A stretch of 64,000 bases of DNA, taken from positions 2,852,001 through 2,916,000 of the forward strand of contig OY751491.1 in the NCBI GenBank assembly GCA_963565915.1. The letters run 5' to 3'. Below the pieces are notes generated by a model. It saw only the letters and a program-made list of their open reading frames with translations, had not been told where the DNA came from and did no database searches. This DNA comes from Entoloma clypeatum. Lineage: Eukaryota; Basidiomycota; Agaricomycetes; Agaricales; Entolomataceae. Shown here one piece after another: positions 1-22,738 of the stretch. A program made the position numbers and the translations under genes. How positions within the stretch are numbered: position 1 is the stretch's first letter; each line of letters begins with the position of its first letter.

Positions 1-670
1 TTCGGGTTGCCTCAGGGACTTCCCATTTTTATGGTTGCACGATCTCAGATTTGATGCTGACTTAAAATCGTTCCTAGATGAAAGGATCTTGCATCTGCTT
101 CCATTATGGTTTCATTCAAGCAAACCATTGGTCACACCGTGACATCCGCGTCATTCAGCGTGATGACGGTTTCCACAGACGACACCTCTGTACTCTGAAT
201 TGCATGGTCACACCACGCATTCGGAAGGTGAGAGTCACGCAATTGCGATACGGACGGCATGCACGCCATATCTGTACTCGCAAATTGGAAAGAAAAAAGC
301 AGTATGTGTCCCCATCTACATTCTCTTCACTCGTTGAACTATGACTCTAGGATCCCTGGGCGCCACGCCCGAGTAACATCCGGAGAGCTCGAACGAGGGA
401 CTTACCGTCCCCCTTCAATCACAGTGACGATGAAGAAAGGAGAATCACACCCGGGGTTACACCCGGGGTAATAAAGATGGAGCAATCGCCTGAACTGTAG
501 GCGACCGTCTTTATGTAAATACCACAGCATTGTGACCCTTAGTCACATAAATAAAGGCTATTACATAAACTCTCTCTGACATGTGTCACAAACAATTCAG
601 AACAATACCTCTTATCGGTTCAAATTGGTCTTGAATATTTGCTGACCACTGTTTCTTTTTAGAAACAAAC
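1..670 (+). other. leader of copia-like element 0, no gene
   Basis: I see no convincing coding region here. It lies just upstream of a copia-type gag. A pyrimidine-rich 3' splice site ends at 661-662 (CTGTTTCTTTTTAG), nine bases before the gag ATG at 671. The LTR of the same element further right carries a consensus 5' splice site at 5213, so this stretch is probably the 3' part of a leader intron. The 5' LTR and primer-binding site would lie left of the window. Confidence 0.45.
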
Positions 671-1534
671 ATGTCTTCAATCACTTCTTTGATTGCTGTT
701 CCCGTTCTTGACGGCACAAACTACCCTGAGTGGGCGAACACCATGTGTTCGTTCCTTAGATCTCAGGGTTTGTGGCAAATTGTTGATGGTGCTGAGAAGC
801 GACCCTTGATGTCTGCTAACCTTACGAGGAAAGCCCATACAACTAAAGTCAAGGCATGGAACATTAGGGATCAAATGGCTTTAGCCAATATTCGACTTCG
901 TATCGACCCGTCGATCAAACTCACCAAAAATATGTCTTCTGAGACTTGGTTTGAGTTGAAGAATAGGTTCGGACGAGCTGTTTATGAAACAGTTCTGTCT
1001 GACATTCGTGCTGCATTGTCCTTCAAACTTTCTATGAAACGACAACCTGCAACTGAGATTGATTATCTTGATAAAATCTTTGATCATCTCGGCGCACATC
1101 ATTCTATTTCTCCATCGACTCGGGCCCTAATGCTTCTATCTGCCCTCCCGTCTCCTGATTGGGATGACTTTGCCATAGAAACCCTTCTTTACAATGATGA
1201 TCTCACCTATGATAAGGTTCGAGAATTGATTGTTGAAACATACAATCATCATCGTGTTGACCCTGTTCCCGATTTGTCACTTGAGGATTACCTTTACGGC
1301 ATAGGTATCTCCTATGATCCTCAACCGACATCGTGCGATGTTTTTCATCAGCCGTTTCGGAACTTATGGAAAAAGAAGTCTTTCTTATCTGCACCAACAG
1401 ACCCTGGTGCTCTGCGCTTCTCTAGCTGCGTCGCCGGTCTGGTGCATGATGCCGTCATAACAGAACAATGCAAGGGTCCACCCGTCGACAATTACGACAT
1501 AGCGTTTCCACGCCTGGACCTTATAGCAGCATAA
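671..1534 (+). CDS. copia-type Gag of a pol-less element
   Basis: The frame encodes 287 residues beginning MSSITSLIAVPVLDGTNYPE. The DGTNYPEWANTM motif followed by a Trp/Phe-rich helical region is typical of the N-terminal Gag domain of Ty1/copia elements (UBN2/DUF4219-type). It recalls the Gag of copia copies 1 and 2 in layout (FDGINYQSWAEKMKSYL there) but is a different family. There is no CCHC knuckle, no protease and no downstream pol; the frame ends at a TAA and 3.3 kb of non-coding sequence follows before the LTR. The last 80 or so residues lose family character and contain the first hairpin of the array (1414-1429), so true Gag may end earlier. Gag would form the particle, with RT and integrase supplied in trans. 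Start chosen at the first ATG after the leader acceptor. Confidence 0.7.
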   Translation: MSSITSLIAVPVLDGTNYPEWANTMCSFLRSQGLWQIVDGAEKRPLMSANLTRKAHTTKVKAWNIRDQMALANIRLRIDPSIKLTKNMSSETWFELKNRFGRAVYETVLSDIRAALSFKLSMKRQPATEIDYLDKIFDHLGAHHSISPSTRALMLLSALPSPDWDDFAIETLLYNDDLTYDKVRELIVETYNHHRVDPVPDLSLEDYLYGIGISYDPQPTSCDVFHQPFRNLWKKKSFLSAPTDPGALRFSSCVAGLVHDAVITEQCKGPPVDNYDIAFPRLDLIAA

Positions 1535-4500
1535 TCATTGTGTAGAATGATTGTATTTTCTTTCTTTGCAATCAAAACATTGATTTGCAATGTGTTCATA
1601 TTTTGAACGAAAGAAAGAGAGATTTAAAAATGCAAATGCATTTTATGTTCAAATAACTTATATCCAATCTGGAATAATTCCAATAAGTTGGGTGTGCCGT
1701 TGAGCCACCTACTATAAAGGAAACAGCTTAATAAGCTTGTCAAGAAGACTGCGCGAGTCATTAATTTGTCTTTCTGCTGCGTCTATCTTTCCTTTTCAGG
1801 GATAAATATTCCACCTTATATTGGATAAGACAAAAAATGCTTTCAAAGCATTTAAAAAGTAATATTGTATTTGTGCGCTATGGCATTTGCATAACACTTA
1901 TTTCTGCGCCTTGACAGGCTGCGATAGTGTTCAAAAATTGTCATTCTGGCTGCCAATATATAATACTTTATTATCAGAAGAAGAGTTTTTCAACCCTTCA
2001 ACCTAAATCGATTCAAATTGGTCTAGCCAACCAATCTTGTTTCTCCACTCTTTCACCAAAAAGTAAGTGATGATTTGGGGCAACGCAAAGCTTCTTATCT
2101 GAACTCTCCATTTCTTGCATGGGAATGATCTCTGATGCATCTTGCGCCTTTTAGGCTGGCATTGCATTTTGACTTATAAGGCATCTGCGCTTTAATCAAG
2201 CAGCGATGGCCTTGTCACAGAATCATATAGGGATGACCGCGATGGTACACACCCTATGGCAAAAATGGATATAGTCAAAAAATCAGATTGTATCACAGCT
2301 TACAAATATTGCTGGAATAAATCGCCTGAGAGTAATTACCTCAGCATAACTTGGAGAGTAATTCCTCCGCAGTTTGCGATTATTTTTTCTGCATGAATTT
2401 CTGGTTTCCCAACCAAGTTCTGCATCTATTTCAGTATATGCTCTTTGAAAGCCAAAGATACATGGGAAATGATTGCCATACTTGACTGTGAAAAGGGGGA
2501 GAATATAGAGAAGCATTTTAATGGCAGCATTCTGCGCTATTTGCTTTGCGATACCATTGCTAGAAGACTGAACTTTGATCTTTTGATCTCACCATCAGAT
2601 GCATTGCTTCGTATACAACACTCTATAGGTTGTACCATTAAAGGAGCGCCGTGACCGCTGCATACTTATCAAATGGTCAACTTGAACAAAAGAAAAAGCT
2701 TATCCCAACTTATACCCCTATGATTTCTCACCTAGAAACGATGAATTCTGGATAAAAGAGAATATCATATGAATCGATCCGTTAGTCTTATCAGACTATT
2801 GTTGGGTTCTATATCCAAGTATATCTTCTATGATTACTTGATGAAGCATCTTAATTGATAGCTTACAAATAATGCATTAATTTGCATTATATGGTTCTTG
2901 GAATATCAAGATTACTATTGATTGCATGAAACGCATCAGAGTGCTTGTTACACTCTTGAGATTTGGATCAACCCATCATCTGATCTGCGCCTTGTTTTGG
3001 CTGCAACAATGATCTGGTTCTTGCATTGAATAGAGCGCCTGTGTTGGCTGCCTCCTTTGACAAACAAGACCAAATAACACCCTCACGCATTATTGTTGTA
3101 TCATGCAACAAACATAGTAAATCTGTGTTGATGTCTTAGAGTGGATTCTCTATTGACCTCTGAACATAAATCGGTTGTTCACCAACATAAAGTATTACCA
3201 ACCACAAAGAACTACATTGCAAGTCATTTATTTGACTATAATCTGCAATATTGCTTGCACATCATCACATATAACAGTTGGCTTGATTGCCTATAAAATC
3301 TGTAAAATATACTCCATGGAATTGGTTTTCAGGGGGAGATAATTCATTCTCTATTGATCTTAAAACAATCCACATGATGTTTGCTTGTCTAGCCTTTGCA
3401 TAACAATGTGCGCCCCTTTGGGCTTGCCACAGTTACTAGGCTTGATTATATCTGCGCTCAAATAATGGCTGCAATATCAATCATTGCGATTATATTTTGC
3501 AATAGCTTGGATAGTACGTCAGACGATATGGGAAACGATGGCGAAACTACCAGCTGTCTCAGATATTATATTCTGAAGACTCGACGTCCACTATGATGAT
3601 AAACTGGACCCTACTCCGGAACAGAGCATAAACTATCACAGTGGACTCTGAACCTAACTAGTTCATCCACATCCCTGAAGTCTGGAGTATTACACTCGAC
3701 TCAGATGACATTATCTATAAGCGCATCTAAAGTGTTGCCATGATAATATTACATACTCAGGATAAAGGCACCCTTGTCTAAAAATCCATGGTTGTTAGCG
3801 CCTTATTTGGCAGCTTCCCAGAGTATAAATAAGCTATTTATAGCTTAGATCATGCCAAGCATGATATCATCAATTGGTTAAATGACCCTTTGAGCCAGAT
3901 CAAGTCTAACGAGCTCTTAATTGAGTTATGTCTTCTGACTTATCCCCGGCCTTAGTGCCACATGCTCTTTCTATACTAGTTCTTGCGCTACTACTGGCTG
4001 CAACTACTATGTGATCCATAAAAACTGAGTACCACTATGTCTTGAGCGCCTTCTTGGGCTGCCTGCATTGGTAGTCTCATTTTTGTGTGAATCATGGTCA
4101 AAACCATTGATACTCGTCTGGAATGACAATAAACTATCACACGTGGTTCGCTGATGCAATCAGGCCAAACACCTGACTCAGCATGGTCCGTGCGAGATAG
4201 GCAAAGCCTTAAATACGCTCCTCAAAAGGAATTTTAGAGCAGGCTTCCAATGGCATTCTTCGCCTACTTCTCCACCGCCTTCTACACTCGCTTCGCACAT
4301 GCCGACCAGTTGGCGCATGTTGCCCCGACCAACGCCAGCACCACCACCACCACCATCACTACTGCAGCCTCCGCCGCTGCTTCCTCATCGCCCTCTAGCA
4401 GTAACACTGCTACGACCACCGACGACAAGAAATGTCGAAGGAAACTAAAGTAGATAGTGGTAGAAGTAATTAGATAATCAATTACTTCAGTGGCTGCTCT

Positions 4501-4732
4501 AAGCGCTACACTAGGCTGCTTCAAGCGCCATTAATGGCTGCATGTTTATTGCGCTATTTCATATCTCTCAAAGGTATTTTTATCCTTTGATGATCTATTG
4601 ATCTCAGATTGACTTCTGATGAGACCTGTCTATTCTTGTTTTGGAATTAGACTCATGGGTCTCTGATAAGACCTTAAATGACAGCGTATGCTAAACGACA
4701 CAGCAGATCCCCTTTAGCGCCCTTATGGCTGC
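1414..4732 (+). repeat. array of about 16 bulged GC hairpins
   Basis: A short motif recurs on the + strand only: GCGCY, a 5-8 nt variable loop, then RGCWGC. As RNA it folds into GC / GCY paired with RGC / GC with one bulged U or A on the 3' side. Strict copies: 1414-1429, 1906-1922, 2987-3004, 3035-3051, 3454-3472, 3798-3814, 3985-4001, 4046-4062, 4503-4519, 4525-4541, 4717-4732. Variants keep pairing: 2187-2204 (GCTT with AAGC), 3410-3427 (GCCC with GGGC), 3721-3738 (GCA with UGU), 2646-2661 and 2144-2160. Loops and flanks are unrelated between copies, so this is not a longer tandem repeat. No function is known to me. Confidence 0.7.
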
Positions 4733-4819
4733 TGCCATTTATTTTGGCTCTTCACTAGGACTTGAATGTCTTCTTGTGAGCAAGTATTGAAACCTGACGG
4801 AATCACACTTGAGGGGGAG
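1535..4819 (+). mobile_element. non-coding interior of copia-like element 0
   Basis: The stretch is AT-rich, has stops in all frames and shows no protease, integrase, RT or RNase H remnant I can recognise. It ends in a polypurine tract (GAGGGGGAG, 4811-4819) directly against an LTR start. Together with the upstream gag this is the layout of a large non-autonomous LTR retrotransposon. It carries most of the hairpin array. Only one compositionally different patch is visible, near 4245-4460. Confidence 0.6.
4250..4453 (+). CDS. possible small Ser/Thr/Ala-rich ORF, unrecognised
   Basis: A 67-codon frame begins MAFFAYFSTAFYTRFAH and continues as a Thr/Ala/Ser-rich run ending in a basic KKCRRKLK tail. 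The patch is clearly more GC-rich than its surroundings, which is why it is listed. Homology is not recognisable and the low-complexity run (ACC and GCC repeats) may simply be simple-sequence DNA. It sits inside the non-coding body of a retroelement, so coding status is doubtful. Confidence 0.2.
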   Translation: MAFFAYFSTAFYTRFAHADQLAHVAPTNASTTTTTITTAASAAASSSPSSSNTATTTDDKKCRRKLK

Positions 4820-5246
4820 TGTTGAGAATACATTCTAGACGGATGTCTCAACAGTCAATCACATGTCAATAAACATGTGTATTCCCATATGAAGTTACAT
4901 ATGGAAGTGTTCTAGACTTAGAACAATCTAGACTCGCTCTAGATCCCTGACTCATTAGATATGTGTCAGACGTACATAACATATGTCATGTTATGTCACA
5001 TCATGTGCTTGTCACACTATATGACTATAAGTCACATATTACCATATATGTGAGTTTATGGTTCTGCGACAGAACTCAGTTTGTACTTGTTTGTACATGG
5101 TCTGTGCGCATCCTTGTAGGTATAAATACTTGATGTATCTGTATCTGCAATAACAGGACTCTTACCAAGTACCTTCATCACTCAAGCTCTTCACGCTCTT
5201 CTTACCTCCAATGTGAGTATCTTACCCAGGCTTCCCTGCGTATGTA
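4820..5246 (+). mobile_element. 3' LTR of copia-like element 0, truncated
   Basis: The LTR begins TGTTGAGAATACATTC right after a polypurine tract, has a TATA-like ATAAATAC near 5121 and a pyrimidine-rich stretch, and carries the 5' splice site AT|GTGAGTAT at 5213. The copia-1 and copia-2 LTRs have an equivalent site (AT|GTAAGTG) about 90 bp before their ends. No terminal CA inverted repeat follows; instead the sequence passes into a gypsy integrase at about 5247. The LTR is therefore probably cut short by that junction, and the exact right edge is uncertain. Confidence 0.55.
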
Positions 5247-5247
5247 G

Positions 5248-6135
5248 GTGTGCTGTTCAATACTTGGCATTAAGATTGCTGCCTCGACAGCCTACCATCC
5301 GCAGTCGGACGGACAGACGGAGCGGGTCAATCAAGGATTGGAACAATATCTTCGCCTATTCGTCAATGAACGTCAAGACGATTGGGACGAATGGCTTCCG
5401 ATGGCTGAATTTGCATACAACAACCATGTTCACGCATCGACACGTCAAACTCCGTTCTACATTGACACCGGCCGCCATCCACGCATGGGATTCGAACCTC
5501 GCGAGAAGCGGACGGAAATCGAGGCGGTAGCGGATTTCAGCGAGCGGATGAAGTCCGCTCTGGAAGAGGCTCGCGCAGCACTAACAAAGGCAAAAGACGA
5601 CATGGCGCGATACTACAACCAGCATCGGAGCACCACTCCGACATTCCGCCCGGGGGACAAGGTCTTTTTAGACTCATCGGACCTCAAAACCACCCGACCC
5701 ACAAAAAAACTTGCACATCGGTACGTAGGCCCTTTCCCAGTGGTCCGACCTGTCGGAACACATGCCTACGAACTTCGCCTTCCCCCTTCCATGTCCCGCA
5801 TTCACCCAGTATTCCACGTTGTCAAACTTTCACTAGTTCCCGACGACCCTTTCCGACGCCAAGTCCGCTCTCCTCCGCCTCCGACGGTAGTGGGAGAAGA
5901 ATTGGAGTATGATGTTGAAAACCTCTTGGACAGCCGACTGCATCGAGGCAAGCTTCAATTCTTGGTCAAATGGAAGGGATATGGCTACGAAGAGAATTTC
6001 TGGGAAGCAGAAGACAATGTCCACGCTCCGCGCCTAGTCCGCGACTTCTACCGACGTCATCCGGGAGCTCCGCGTCGGATCTCCGCTGCGATATTCGACT
6101 CGTTTCGCCTGACACGTCGAGACGCCGTGCCTTGA
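5248..6135 (+). pseudogene. 3' part of chromodomain gypsy integrase
   Basis: About 295 codons remain open. They start inside the integrase core: TAYHPQSDGQTERVNQGLEQ carries the last catalytic Glu. The AEFAYNNHVHASTRQTPFY region, a GPY/F-like module (RYVGPFPVV) and a C-terminal chromodomain (ILDSR-type start, then LVKWKGYGYEENFWEAEDNV) follow. This order is that of Ty3/gypsy chromoviruses, whose chromodomain guides integration to particular chromatin. Everything upstream (gag, protease, RT, RNase H and the first integrase aspartates) is missing, so this is a 5'-truncated relic. The stop at 6133-6135 lies 11 bp before its LTR, as expected for an intact 3' end. Confidence 0.9.
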
Positions 6136-6581: not shown

Positions 6582-9500
6582 GACTCCATCGTCATCTTCG
6601 ATGGCATCGACTACCAAAGCTGGGCCGAAAGGATGAAGTCCTACCTCCTCCATCAAGGAGTATGGCGCCTTGTTTCTGGCGACATCACCCGCCCTGTCAT
6701 TGCCGACTTCACCACCACGGTCTCCACCACTGGGGCCACTGCTGCTGCTCCTCCTGTACTGGTTACCACTATTGACCAGCCCGGCTTCCGCAAGGAAGAA
6801 AAGGCCTGGATTAGGGACGACGATACAGCCCTTGGAGCGATCCGTCTAAAAGTCTCTGAGGCGATCAGACGACACATCAAAGACAGCACCTCGGCACTTG
6901 GCGCGTGGAAAACGCTGAAGGATGCCTACTCCAAGGTATCCCCGGCTGTCATCTTCGGCGATTTCAAGGCCGCCGCCACCTACAAGCTGTCTGGACGCGA
7001 CCCCGTGCCTGAAATTGAACGCCTGGGGTCTCTTTTCGCCCGGCTCGCCGATTCGAGCTTTGTCGTCCCCGATCTGATGCAGGCAATGATCCTGGCCAAT
7101 GCAATTCCCGACGCCTGGTCGTCACTCTCCACCGCCCTTTTCCAGGTCTATGACGCCGATGATTTCACCTATAAGGCCGTCGCCGAAAGCATCATCTCTG
7201 AATACCGGCGCAAATATGCGGTAGGGTCTACTCGGGCGTCCAACGAGCAGGCCCGGAAAATCTCCGGGACAAAGTGCAAGGGGCAGGACCCTAAATGGGA
7301 AAGGCAGCAAAAGCCGAGTACCTCGCAGAACGATGCTGACGAGCAGCCTAACTCGGCCGATCCAAGTACCGCTTCTGAGAAGAAGAAGGGAAAGGGACAT
7401 TGGCGCAATCAGAAGAAAAGTGCTAACAATGCGGACAAGACGTCCGACCATGTGGAAGAAACAGTTGAGTTTGTTGCTCCTGCCATTCACTTCCCCCCTC
7501 TTCCGGCACCGTCCTTCACCACCGTCACTGGTCGCGGGAAAACGACAAGTACCGCACAGCCCGATTCCGAAAAAATGCAGTCGCTCCTGCAACGCATGAA
7601 CCCCCCTCCGTCACAGTACACCGGGCTTCCTTCTGGAAAGCCGTCAGTGTGGAAAAAGAATGAAAGGGTGCGAAAGCTCGCCCGAGAGATCGGCGCACAA
7701 CCCTCTGGATCGAACCTTTGTATCCTAGATACCATCATTCCTGACATCGACGAAAGGCCGGCTAAACAGCGTCACGTAGCCCCGTCAATAGAAGAATCAC
7801 TGAAGATGATGGACATCGACCAGGAACGAATGGGGCCGGATCAATTCGAAGATGGGCTTATCGAACTTGACGGTTCGTCATCTCCCTCTCCTGAATCTGA
7901 CCAATTAAGGAAAGCTAATAACACCTCCTTTCAGATGTGTAAAATATTAGCTAGTACTAGTGCAGAATGTATGGATCATATTGACAGCGATCTATATAAA
8001 AAATATACAAAGCACTTTGCGTCATGCACACACTGTAAGGAGAAAGAACGCGCACAATGGATCTTAGACTCCGGTGCCTCGTTACACTTTACCCATGAGT
8101 TCAAGGACTTTGCGTACTACAGGCCTCTCAAGGCTAAGTGATTTGTCCAAACAGCTGCAAAGGGAAAGAAACTGGAGATACTCGGAGTTGGGGCCGTTCC
8201 AGTATGGCATACCCTAAATGGGGAAACTAAAACCCATCTCCTACGACTGGTATTTTATATTCTGGATATGGACACACGTCTATTGTCCCTAGGCGTCTTC
8301 CTTAACCATGGTTACAAAGTTGATGGAATGCGCGGAGAAATTAATATCTCTAAAGGGCTGAACAAAATACAGTTTTCGCCTCATTTCATCGGACAAACCA
8401 TTTACTGGTTAGACACTGAAATACGCTATGACCAAATCCACGCGATCTCTAGCAAAATCACTGTTGAAACCTGGCATAAACGTCTTGGCCACCCCAATGA
8501 CCAGGCGCTCAATAAAATTCCCACTAGTACCAAAGGAGTACCCAGAACGTTAGTACGTGAGAAATCACAGGAAAGCTGCACGGGGTGCCTCAAAGGGAAA
8601 ATGCCGAATCAGTCATACCCCAATTCAATGACGAGGGCTGTCAAACCCTTCAACCTGATTCATTCAGACCTGAAACAGATATCCACGGCATCGTACCACA
8701 AGTACAAATACTTCCTCACATTTCTGGACGATTTTTCATCTCATGTCTGGGTCGTCTTGCTTAGGAAAAAGTCTGGTGCCATCACGGCACTAAGACAGTT
8801 TCTTGCGATGATCCAGAACCAATTTGCCGCTACTCCTAAGAAGTGGCGAGTTGATGGAGGTGGAGAATTTGACGAGTACAAAGATGTACTTGCCGATCAT
8901 GGAATTCTGATCGACGTCACGCTCCCATATCAGCACCAGCAGAATGGTAGAGCAGAAAGGATCAATCGAACACTATGGGAAAAATCTCAGGCATTGCGCT
9001 TCGATGCATGCTTACCGCCCATGTGGTGGGAATTCTGTTTGGAACACGCAGCATTTCTCTATAACAGAACCCCCATGCAGCGTCTTGAATGGAAAACCCC
9101 TTACTTCAGGGTGACCAATGAGATCCCCGACATGTCCAGCATCAGAGTATTTGGATGTCAAGCATATGTATATATCCCAAAGGAGAAACGTAGGAACTCC
9201 CTGGAATCAAGATCCCGATTGATGATTTATCTCGGATCAAAACCAGGGGTCAAAGGATACCGCTTCATGGATCCTGAGACCAACACGATTTTCATGGGAG
9301 GGAAAGCTATCTTTGATGAAAGCAAGTACCCTAGATGCCATATCGACCCGTTGCCAGAAAATCACCCAGAAATGGATAACCCAGAGCCGGCTGATGAGTT
9401 TGAGGATCTCATTCCCGGCAGCAATGACAACGACAGTCACAACGAAACACCTCATGACCCACTTCCCATTGAACAGGATCAACCTGAATCAGACAACGAA

Positions 9501-21202: not shown

Positions 21203-22738
21203 CGCTTTCAATCGGTCGCCTACCGGGGGTGTCCTCGCTATTGCGGGGCTCATGCCTGCTAGACAACACATCACCAAGCTTGTGCAGCGCTCCCGAATCA
21301 GAGCCGCCCAGCTTCCCGTCACTCATCCTGTCGTCTGCGAGCTTTTGCTCAAGGCGGAGAATAAGACCCCTAGCCCAATCGTCGACATTCAGAACCTGAT
21401 GATCGCCGTCAAACTTGAGAGATCCGACTACCTGAGCGAGGAGGCTCGCCCAGGAAATCACATACTCGACCTTTATCCAGATTCCTTCATCTGGGATGCC
21501 CCACAGGTCGATGACGACAAGAAACGTTACACCTACCTCAAAGACATCCTCACCACTGCTGAGGAAGAAAATCACCAAGCGGCCTTCTGCATCGCTGCCC
21601 GGCCCAGTGTCGGTAAGACGTTGTCGTCGGCAGTTGCGGTAGTCCGGTTCGCCCCCTCCATTGGTCGTCACGCTCAAGACCCCCATATGACCAGAGCCAG
21701 CGCAGGTAGAAGTCTCGCCCCTGAGACTCTCATCGTCGCCACCCTTCTCGGCCTTAGCAAGGTCATCACCCACACTCCTTATGTCACGGAGATCCACATC
21801 TTCACCCGAAACATACAGGCTGTCCGACTCGCCCTCGATACAGGTTCCATTCATGCGGGCCACTCTGTCTCCTGCGGCATTTCCCGTCTCCTCCGGTCCT
21901 TCCTCGCTGGAGCTGGCGTCATCCATGTCCACCTCGACACACCTCTCACGTCTGAGTGGGGTTCTGCCTTCCCCGACCCCTCATGTCACTTCAAATCGAC
22001 TCAAGGAACAGCCTTGTCTCCCCTGTTGCCCAACTTTGCCCGTACTGCTGCCGCTACCAGCGCCGTAGATGGATGGCGCAAACTTCATTCCGCCCCCAAA
22101 TTCCGAGGTCGCTCCTTCCTTCCTCTCCACACTGGAGACAAAGAGAGGGTATTCCAACCGGACCACGTCAAAGGTGGACCGTGGCTCAATTCCTGGGCGG
22201 GCAACAACAACGCGCTGTTCGCTCGCCTCACCCGCGCCACCCTGGGCCACGCTCCCATCGGTGCCTATAGACAACGCTTCAACCATCCAGGCCCATTCAC
22301 ATGTGCCTGCGATGATGACACCCTCGAGACGGTCGACCACCTCCTCCACAAATGTCCTCTCTTTGATAGGGACGATGCCTCCAACAAACGGTACAACATC
22401 GGCAATTTCCTGGGGATGCTCGCAAACCATCCCGCGTTATTCGCCTTTCCCCCACCCTAACTTATCGGGTGAGCTTCAGTGTTATGTTTTCTTTCCTTCA
22501 CGGTCTCTCTAGTTACTACGGTCTCTGCCTACGGGCGTATGTAGTTTATATACGGGGTCTGTTCTGGTGGACTTGATCCATGGGCGGACCCCACTCTCGG
22601 ATACTTATATATTTCTCTCCGCACATGTGCCGTGACCACAGGGCATTACTATCCAATACTCTCATATGTAGTTCTCGTTAAATTTGTAACTTAGTGTACA
22701 AGACCGGACTGCGATCGGGCGCCGGAATATAAATTGAG

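Follow-up and report, generated by a model that had tools for sequence, protein, structure and literature searches.

A bulged hairpin repeated on the sense strand of a gag-only copia-type element and of an intact copia family in Entoloma clypeatum

Background

We analyze a stretch of 64,000 nucleotides from Entoloma clypeatum (contig OY751491.1, positions 2,852,001 to 2,916,000 of the forward strand; hereafter "the window"). It holds all but the 5' part, which lies upstream of the window start, of a 6.3 kb long terminal repeat (LTR) retrotransposon, element A, with a copia-type gag and no pol. A preliminary description of the window had proposed that a short bulged hairpin recurs in A and that selection acts on its shape in RNA. 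Here we count the hairpin, follow it through other copies of A, and report it in an intact copia family of the same genome, family B. We consider it very probable that the hairpin is a selected, RNA-level signal common to A and B. On the narrower proposal that the hairpins are repeated cis-acting signals for particle packaging, common to a helper (B) and a parasite (A), our judgement is evenly divided.

Results

The gag open reading frame (ORF) of A occupies 671..1534 on the + strand (287 codons) and matches Pfam Retrotran_gag_2 (PF14223, E 3.7e-10), Gag families alone being matched in Pfam. No stop-to-stop frame of at least 120 amino acids lies between 1534 and the 3' LTR, no pol was seen in A, and the initial classification as a pol-less copia-like element stands. 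The 3' LTR (4820..5262, +), preceded by a polypurine tract recognized from the sequence (4811..4819, +), agrees at 443/443 positions with the 5' LTR, which lies outside the window at C10:2850958-2851400 (L009:3958-4400); a 5-bp target duplication, CTTGG, is present on both sides. The identity of the LTRs indicates a recent insertion. Near-full copies of the subfamily to which this copy belongs, A1, occur in at least 35 places including the window's own, each matching at least 3,038 of 3,197 query bases (a lower bound, as 40 of 123 candidates were scored), which points to past mobility of A. A second subfamily, A2 (loci L036-L039), has a gag 63-66% identical to that of A1, and its copies are older and gag-only, with insertions and decay. 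Compared with four A2 copies, the gag of A has a ratio of nonsynonymous to synonymous substitution rates (dN/dS) of 0.31-0.37. A protein search with the A gag returned just two proteins, from Gloeophyllum trabeum at 29-30% identity, and a search with the B gag returned none.

The hairpin usually opens with GC pairs, followed by a 3'-side bulge of U or A and by three or four inner pairs, of which the first two are G-C and C-G, and closes with a loop of 3-8 bases. We scanned for a strict motif, GCGCY-N5-8-RGCWGC, and for looser forms with a spacer of N3-8 or with the GCGC and GCWGC ends alone fixed. Between 1414 and 4732 we count 12 strict motifs on the + strand against 0 on the - strand, so that the array reported earlier is real and its figure of 11 strict copies was wrong. 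Dinucleotide shuffles of this stretch contain a mean of 0.01 motifs and none of 1,000 gets to 12, which rules out chance or base composition as the origin of the array and agrees with the expectation that such a motif should be far rarer by chance. The N3-8 scan finds 12 on + and 2 on -, the two antisense matches sitting at the junction between the adjacent hairpins 4503 and 4525. Across 17 full A1 copies (L010, L014 and 15 of 17 ranked loci, omitting L027 and L029, which overlap an inverted pair, and the nested L011/L012) N5-8 motifs number 246 in sense and 0 in antisense orientation, and the 32 antisense N3-8 matches are all the same two junction words. With the ends alone fixed, window 601-4818 yields 13 on + and 4 on -.

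All sites in the window lie on the + strand, and their states are given from an A1 alignment that covers the body in 22 rows, drawn from 21 copies, and the leader in 19 rows, and that took in the 17 most similar of 34 further copies. Bulged hairpins occur at 1414..1429 (within gag; GCGCTACTCTAGCTGC in most copies), 1906..1922 (GCGCCTTGACAGGCTGC), 2187..2204 (GCTT with AAGC; bulge A, replaced by G in 3/21 rows), 2987..3004, 3035..3051, 3454..3472, 3798..3814 (bulge A), 3985..4001, 4046..4062 (bulge C in 3/21 rows), 4503..4519 (GCGCTACACTGGCTGC in 17/21 rows), 4525..4541 and 4717..4732. Five variants that preserve pairing had also been claimed. We find such variants at 2144..2159 (GGCTAGC, with a two-base bulge, in 10/21 rows; GGCTGGC in the window and the remaining rows), 3410..3427 (GCCC with GGGC and a two-base bulge, identical in 21/21 rows) and 3721..3738, whereas the GCGC words at 1875, 2534, 2646 and 4551 do not fold in this way. 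The pairing of GCA with UGU described at 3721 exists, but it is the minority form, GCGCAT/GTGT, found here and in three other rows (4/21), and the window's copy of it has a predicted formation of about 0.1; 17/21 rows are of a GCACAC type with GTGT.

The array is also larger than had been described. The leader of A, upstream of the window, adds four strict hairpins (L009:4513, 4607, 4652, 4799) and two variants (L009:4433, 4747), for a total of about 20 hairpins in the leader, at the end of gag and along the long stretch in place of pol. The earlier placement between gag and the 3' LTR holds for most sites but not for 1414, which is inside the gag ORF. Local folding predicts that most of the hairpins form. 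We do not claim that the hairpins are regularly spaced or come in pairs: gaps of 65 nt or less number 7 out of 20, against a simulated mean of 5.5 (P 0.26).

Across A1 copies, 0 of 85 inner-stem non-CpG columns are variable, compared with 325 of 3,871 outside the hairpins (Fisher P 0.0006). When outer pairs and bulges are included, 4/138 non-CpG columns vary (P 0.009); CpG columns vary at 14/39 in stems and bulges versus 159/294 outside (P 0.024). These stem-column counts exclude the gag hairpin (1414) and the variant hairpins, and they carry a slight bias from the choice of hairpins by motif match in the window copy. At each of 1906, 2144, 2187, 3035, 4525, 4717 and L009:4799, one or two rows have an uncompensated G to A change at the first inner pair, and the outer C-G pair of 3798 has become U-G in three rows. 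The preliminary description had named stem mutation without compensation in other copies as evidence against its reading, and here the outcome is divided: single copies do carry uncompensated changes, whereas compensation appears when subfamilies and hairpins are compared.

For the comparison among hairpins, we pooled those of A1 (window and leader) and B that fit the ends-only pattern (GCGC and GCWGC), a set of 23 on the sense strand of which 21 are distinct. Pair 3 is formed in 20 of the 21 (permutation mean 16.3, P 0.0018), as C-G in 12, T-G in four, T-A in three and A-T in one, with one mismatch. Pair 4 is formed in 12 (permutation mean 8.1, P 0.039), with 11 Watson-Crick (P 0.007), and pair 5 gave no covariation signal in this permutation test of 21 hairpins, a set that still contains the L013:2833 hairpin considered below.

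Between A1 and A2, 24 sites were examined, three of them poor even in A1. The hairpin is kept in at least one A2 copy at seven (L009:4433, 4513, 4607 and 4747; window 3721, 4503 and 4525), and 10 of the 24 had no comparable A2 sequence. A1 has C-G as the fourth pair at both L009:4607 and L009:4513; at the former L036 has G-C, and at the latter L036 and L037 have T-A. The 3721 site reads GCGCT/AGC in L039. Decay is also visible, with L037 mismatched at 4607, the L036 hairpin decayed at 4525, and no relaxed-scan hairpin on either strand in the stretch of L038 that was read. Taken together, confinement to the sense strand, stems that change little across copies, covariation at pairs 3 and 4 and two paired changes between subfamilies support the proposal of selection on RNA shape.

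Family B is represented here by L013 (C1:310984-317700), whose LTRs measure about 349 bp and which encodes gag, integrase and reverse transcriptase (RVT_2 E 2.7e-72). Matches to the B gag number at least 87 in the genome, 26 of them within a 1,745-residue open frame (two with stops inside the match). Strict hairpins lie in L013 at 798 (in the LTR, and so repeated at 7165), 884, 1784 and 2588, in sense orientation only with 0 strict antisense motifs, and their count is equalled by 0 of 1,000 shuffles. All unique sites fall within the first 2.1 kb (5' LTR, leader and gag). In five further copies covered at 798, 1784 and 2588, the stems are retained in 5/5, 5/5 and 4/5, respectively, with loops variable and the bulge either A or T; it is L041 (gag dS 0.43) that has lost the last base of the 2588 hairpin. 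At 884 the hairpin is intact in three copies, has a U-G outer pair in L041 and is partly aligned in L002. The LTRs of A and B have a segment of about 170 bp in common, at 78% identity. Neither Gag has a zinc knuckle; B Gag has a basic stretch (+14 over residues 201-280), and A Gag has no basic tail and a net charge of -4.

Family B contains a further frame, ORF0 (L013:773-1609, 278 codons), which starts inside the 5' LTR, spans the leader and precedes gag. Its product has a hydrophobic start, a Cys-rich middle and no Pfam match. The frame is open in L013 and L035, ends after about 99 residues in L015 and is found as two tblastn pieces in L041; its dN/dS is 0.2-0.34 against L041 and 0.47 against L035. 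It could be a putative extra B protein with a role at the RNA level.

Genome-wide, the motif occurs in 1,911 places versus 930 for its mirrored pattern. In the remainder of the window (5300-64000) there are 0 strict motifs on + and one on -, and three other retroelement stretches in the window have 0 strict and 0 ends-only motifs. The one strict motif, at 22063 (-), reads GCGCTGGTAGCGGCAGC; the identical letters recur at C1:2141290 and C1:2936273, which assigns it to another repeat. GCGCTGCTCCGGCAGC, found on both strands at C1:1095778, 1106327, 1575412, 2959749 and 3063522, probably belongs to a further repeat, in which the motif may be present by chance or for another reason.

Immediately 3' of the 5' LTR, both A and B carry the 15 bases GGTTATGGGCCCCGG, a putative primer-binding site that presumably matches an initiator-tRNA half. 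Exact matches number 868 in the genome, with 0 for the mirrored control, and many elements probably have this one primer site in common. In C1:1-3.14 Mb, 12 of 55 such places have sense hairpins within 7 kb, none has antisense hairpins and 43 have no hairpin; two of the 12 (240092 and 1948618) probably reach hairpins of a neighbouring element. Conversely, 41 of the 97 hairpin places in this region are beyond reach of GGTTATGGGCCCCGG, and for five of these 41 we infer from their position that they belong to copies of A or B. Judged from this sample, the hairpin is a mark of A and B and not of copia elements at large.

Two other features of A may be noted. A small second ORF of 67 codons (4250..4453, +) is present in the A2 copies L037 and L039, that is, in two of the three A2 copies scanned, with a dN/dS of 0.28-0.30 from few differences, and has no Pfam match over the cut-off. 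Around the leader, acceptor-like sequence abuts the gag ATG in both families (CTGAC ... tttttag in A, window 601-680; tttcacag in B, L013:1630-1710), and a donor-like GTGAGT lies close to the end of A's LTR. It is possible that the leader, primer site and hairpins included, is an intron retained solely in genomic RNA.

Discussion

The preliminary description had suggested that the hairpins recruit Gag or the proteins of a partner element, and the presence of the same hairpin in the intact family B suggests a named candidate for that partner. We propose that A is a gag-only LTR retrotransposon that would parasitise B. The genomic RNAs of both would bear repeats of a single type of hairpin, with two GC pairs, a 3'-side bulged U or A, three or four pairs starting from GC and a free loop, and a B-encoded protein, most likely Gag, would bind the hairpins and so draw the RNA into a particle that would hold reverse transcriptase and integrase. 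It is the basic stretch of B Gag, set against the A Gag without a basic tail, that leads us to propose B Gag or another B protein as the reader of the hairpin. We infer, from sequence comparison, the B-encoded binding protein, its identity with B Gag, the packaging step and the movement of A through B. With four hairpins in B and about 20 in A, A could compete for B particles, and the space of its lost pol would have been filled with additional hairpins. More tentatively, and with somewhat less confidence than doubt, we suggest a modular RNA mark that has been multiplied in the gag-only parasite to about 3-5 times the helper's number, so that an arms race may be legible in hairpin copy number.

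Several observations weigh against this reading. In A, the gag hairpin (1414) has one of five inner non-CpG columns variable, and folding predicts that L009:4607 and window 4525 do not form in 40-80 bases of context and that L009:4652 and the B hairpin 884 are mostly unformed with 80 bases of context. In A2, the motif is lost or different at seven covered sites (L009:4652; window 1414, 2534, 2646, 3035, 3798 and 4717), and three of the four copies (L036, L037 and L039) have two or three antisense matches each, some of which fall at junctions of adjacent hairpins. The stems of B are mildly conserved, with 5/56 stem and bulge columns variable versus 370/1,978 outside (L013:835-2889), and a relaxed scan gives one antisense match (bulge G) per copy in three B copies. 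A 6-bp hairpin at L013:2833 was rejected as a feature of family B, as it forms in L013 alone and the five other covered copies have GCAC. Over 157 amino acids A Gag is 28% identical to B Gag, less than the 30-36% at which further copia gags of the genome match it. The primer site, with its 868 occurrences, does not single out B as the partner of A, and we dropped it as proof of a partnership. On the other side, the copia relative L040 has the same site and one of these further gags, and the one copy read has 0 strict motifs and one ends-only match, in favour of a hairpin specific to A and B.

Strand bias, covariation and sharing between A and B would also fit an RNA signal for some other step, such as nuclear export or splicing control of the unspliced RNA, dimerisation, stability or translation; the signal would then be read by a host protein or the product of B ORF0. 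The acceptor-like sequence before the gag ATG in both families, with a leader that may be an intron, is in keeping with this, as is the apparent constraint (dN/dS) on ORF0 with its Cys-rich stretch. We nonetheless consider such a role on balance unlikely, given that hairpins are found well downstream in A, too, and within the B gag, and that an export or splicing signal would have no obvious need for about 20 copies. Selected RNA signals of whatever kind are easier to reconcile with the data than a double-stranded DNA site for a transcription factor, chromatin or integration factor, for although the fixed GCGC and GCWGC ends resemble a pair of half-sites, the 246 sense and 0 antisense motifs in 17 copies make a DNA site very unlikely. 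Two stem pairs altered on both sides between subfamilies speak against it as well, and so does the composition of pair 3, where T-G occurs four times and C-A never in A1 and B (five and one when A2 is added; small numbers), as G-U pairing in sense RNA would give.

Identical 16-mers at L009:4513, L009:4607 and in B's LTR are what one might see if a small hairpin unit had been copied or inserted into a functionless array. The loops differ, however, as do the flanks save for short likenesses (TCT before and GAT after several hairpins), and the stems differ by paired changes and have varied less than other columns after their spread, which renders this origin highly improbable. It is only slightly less improbable that the hairpins have a host-derived or self-limiting role, feeding silencing or titrating a host RNA-binding protein. 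We found no direct support for such a role, Rfam 15 covariance models giving 0 matches in window 1-5300 at E up to 1; a recently inserted family, as judged from its identical LTRs, retains the hairpins, and the stems are much shorter than what we take to be typical small-RNA precursors.

Parts of the proposed arrangement have counterparts elsewhere. TR-GAG elements of plants have LTRs and a lone gag ORF without pol, and one transposes in Arabidopsis (PMC8704663). A resembles them in its two LTRs with target duplication, its gag ORF and its lack of pol, and differs in being fungal, in its second small ORF and repeated bulged hairpin, and in a gag 28% identical to that of B. Large pol-less LTR derivatives, as A is, also occur in a mushroom genome as the LARD elements of Laccaria bicolor, in whose description the words "hairpin", "palindrom" and "non-autonomous" are absent (PMC3411680). 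In barley, the RNA of the defective copia element BARE2 enters BARE1 particles, which fits conserved packaging and dimerisation signals (PMC3735527). A and B have the hairpin and an LTR segment in common, which may or may not act in packaging; BARE2, however, is unable to make Gag and is itself a subfamily of its helper's element, whereas A has kept gag, lost pol and bears many dispersed hairpins (PMC3735527).

Stem-loops that mark RNA for a helper's proteins have been described outside copia elements. The totivirus L-A and its satellites have, like A and B, a stem-loop with a bulged base in both helper and satellite RNAs; its bulge is an A on the 5' side near the RNA 3' end, in contrast to the 3'-side U or A of A and B, its encapsidation needs the N-terminal part of Pol, and no relation to A or B by sequence or element is known from that account (PMC8951182). 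Stringent LINE/SINE pairs similarly have an RNA stem-loop common to parasite and helper that the LINE protein recognises, but they are non-LTR elements with one 3'-end stem-loop read by the reverse-transcriptase protein (PMC5135761). Among fungal copia elements, GalEa has a conserved predicted hairpin, the Conserved Hairpin Site, which is single, follows the LTR and replaces the primer-binding site, whereas A and B have a site resembling a primer-binding site and many bulged hairpins (PMC5445492). The packaging region of Ty1, copia-type like B, lies close to the 5' end, inside roughly the first 580 nt; its sequences are not precisely defined and its specificity is only partly explained (PMC8396678). 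By this comparison, the B hairpins, in the 5' part, lie in a region where packaging signals of LTR elements may lie. Ty1 Gag prefers a pseudoknot region, unlike the repeated short hairpin of A and B (PMC8396678). In the material covered, then, mobile gag-only elements, a copia parasite in helper particles, a shared bulged viral packaging hairpin and a single fungal copia hairpin are each already known separately. Among the titles and abstract openings listed in searches of the open-licence literature, none described an LTR helper and a gag-only parasite with a dispersed, multi-copy bulged hairpin in common, which is weak evidence of novelty.

How LTR-element particles choose their RNA, and how pol-less elements gain entry, is poorly understood. 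In the genome of Entoloma clypeatum, a probable helper and its probable parasite have a short, countable and strand-specific hairpin in common. The number, position and pairing of the hairpins could each be altered in a reporter RNA, so that their effect on packaging, or on another step, would become measurable.

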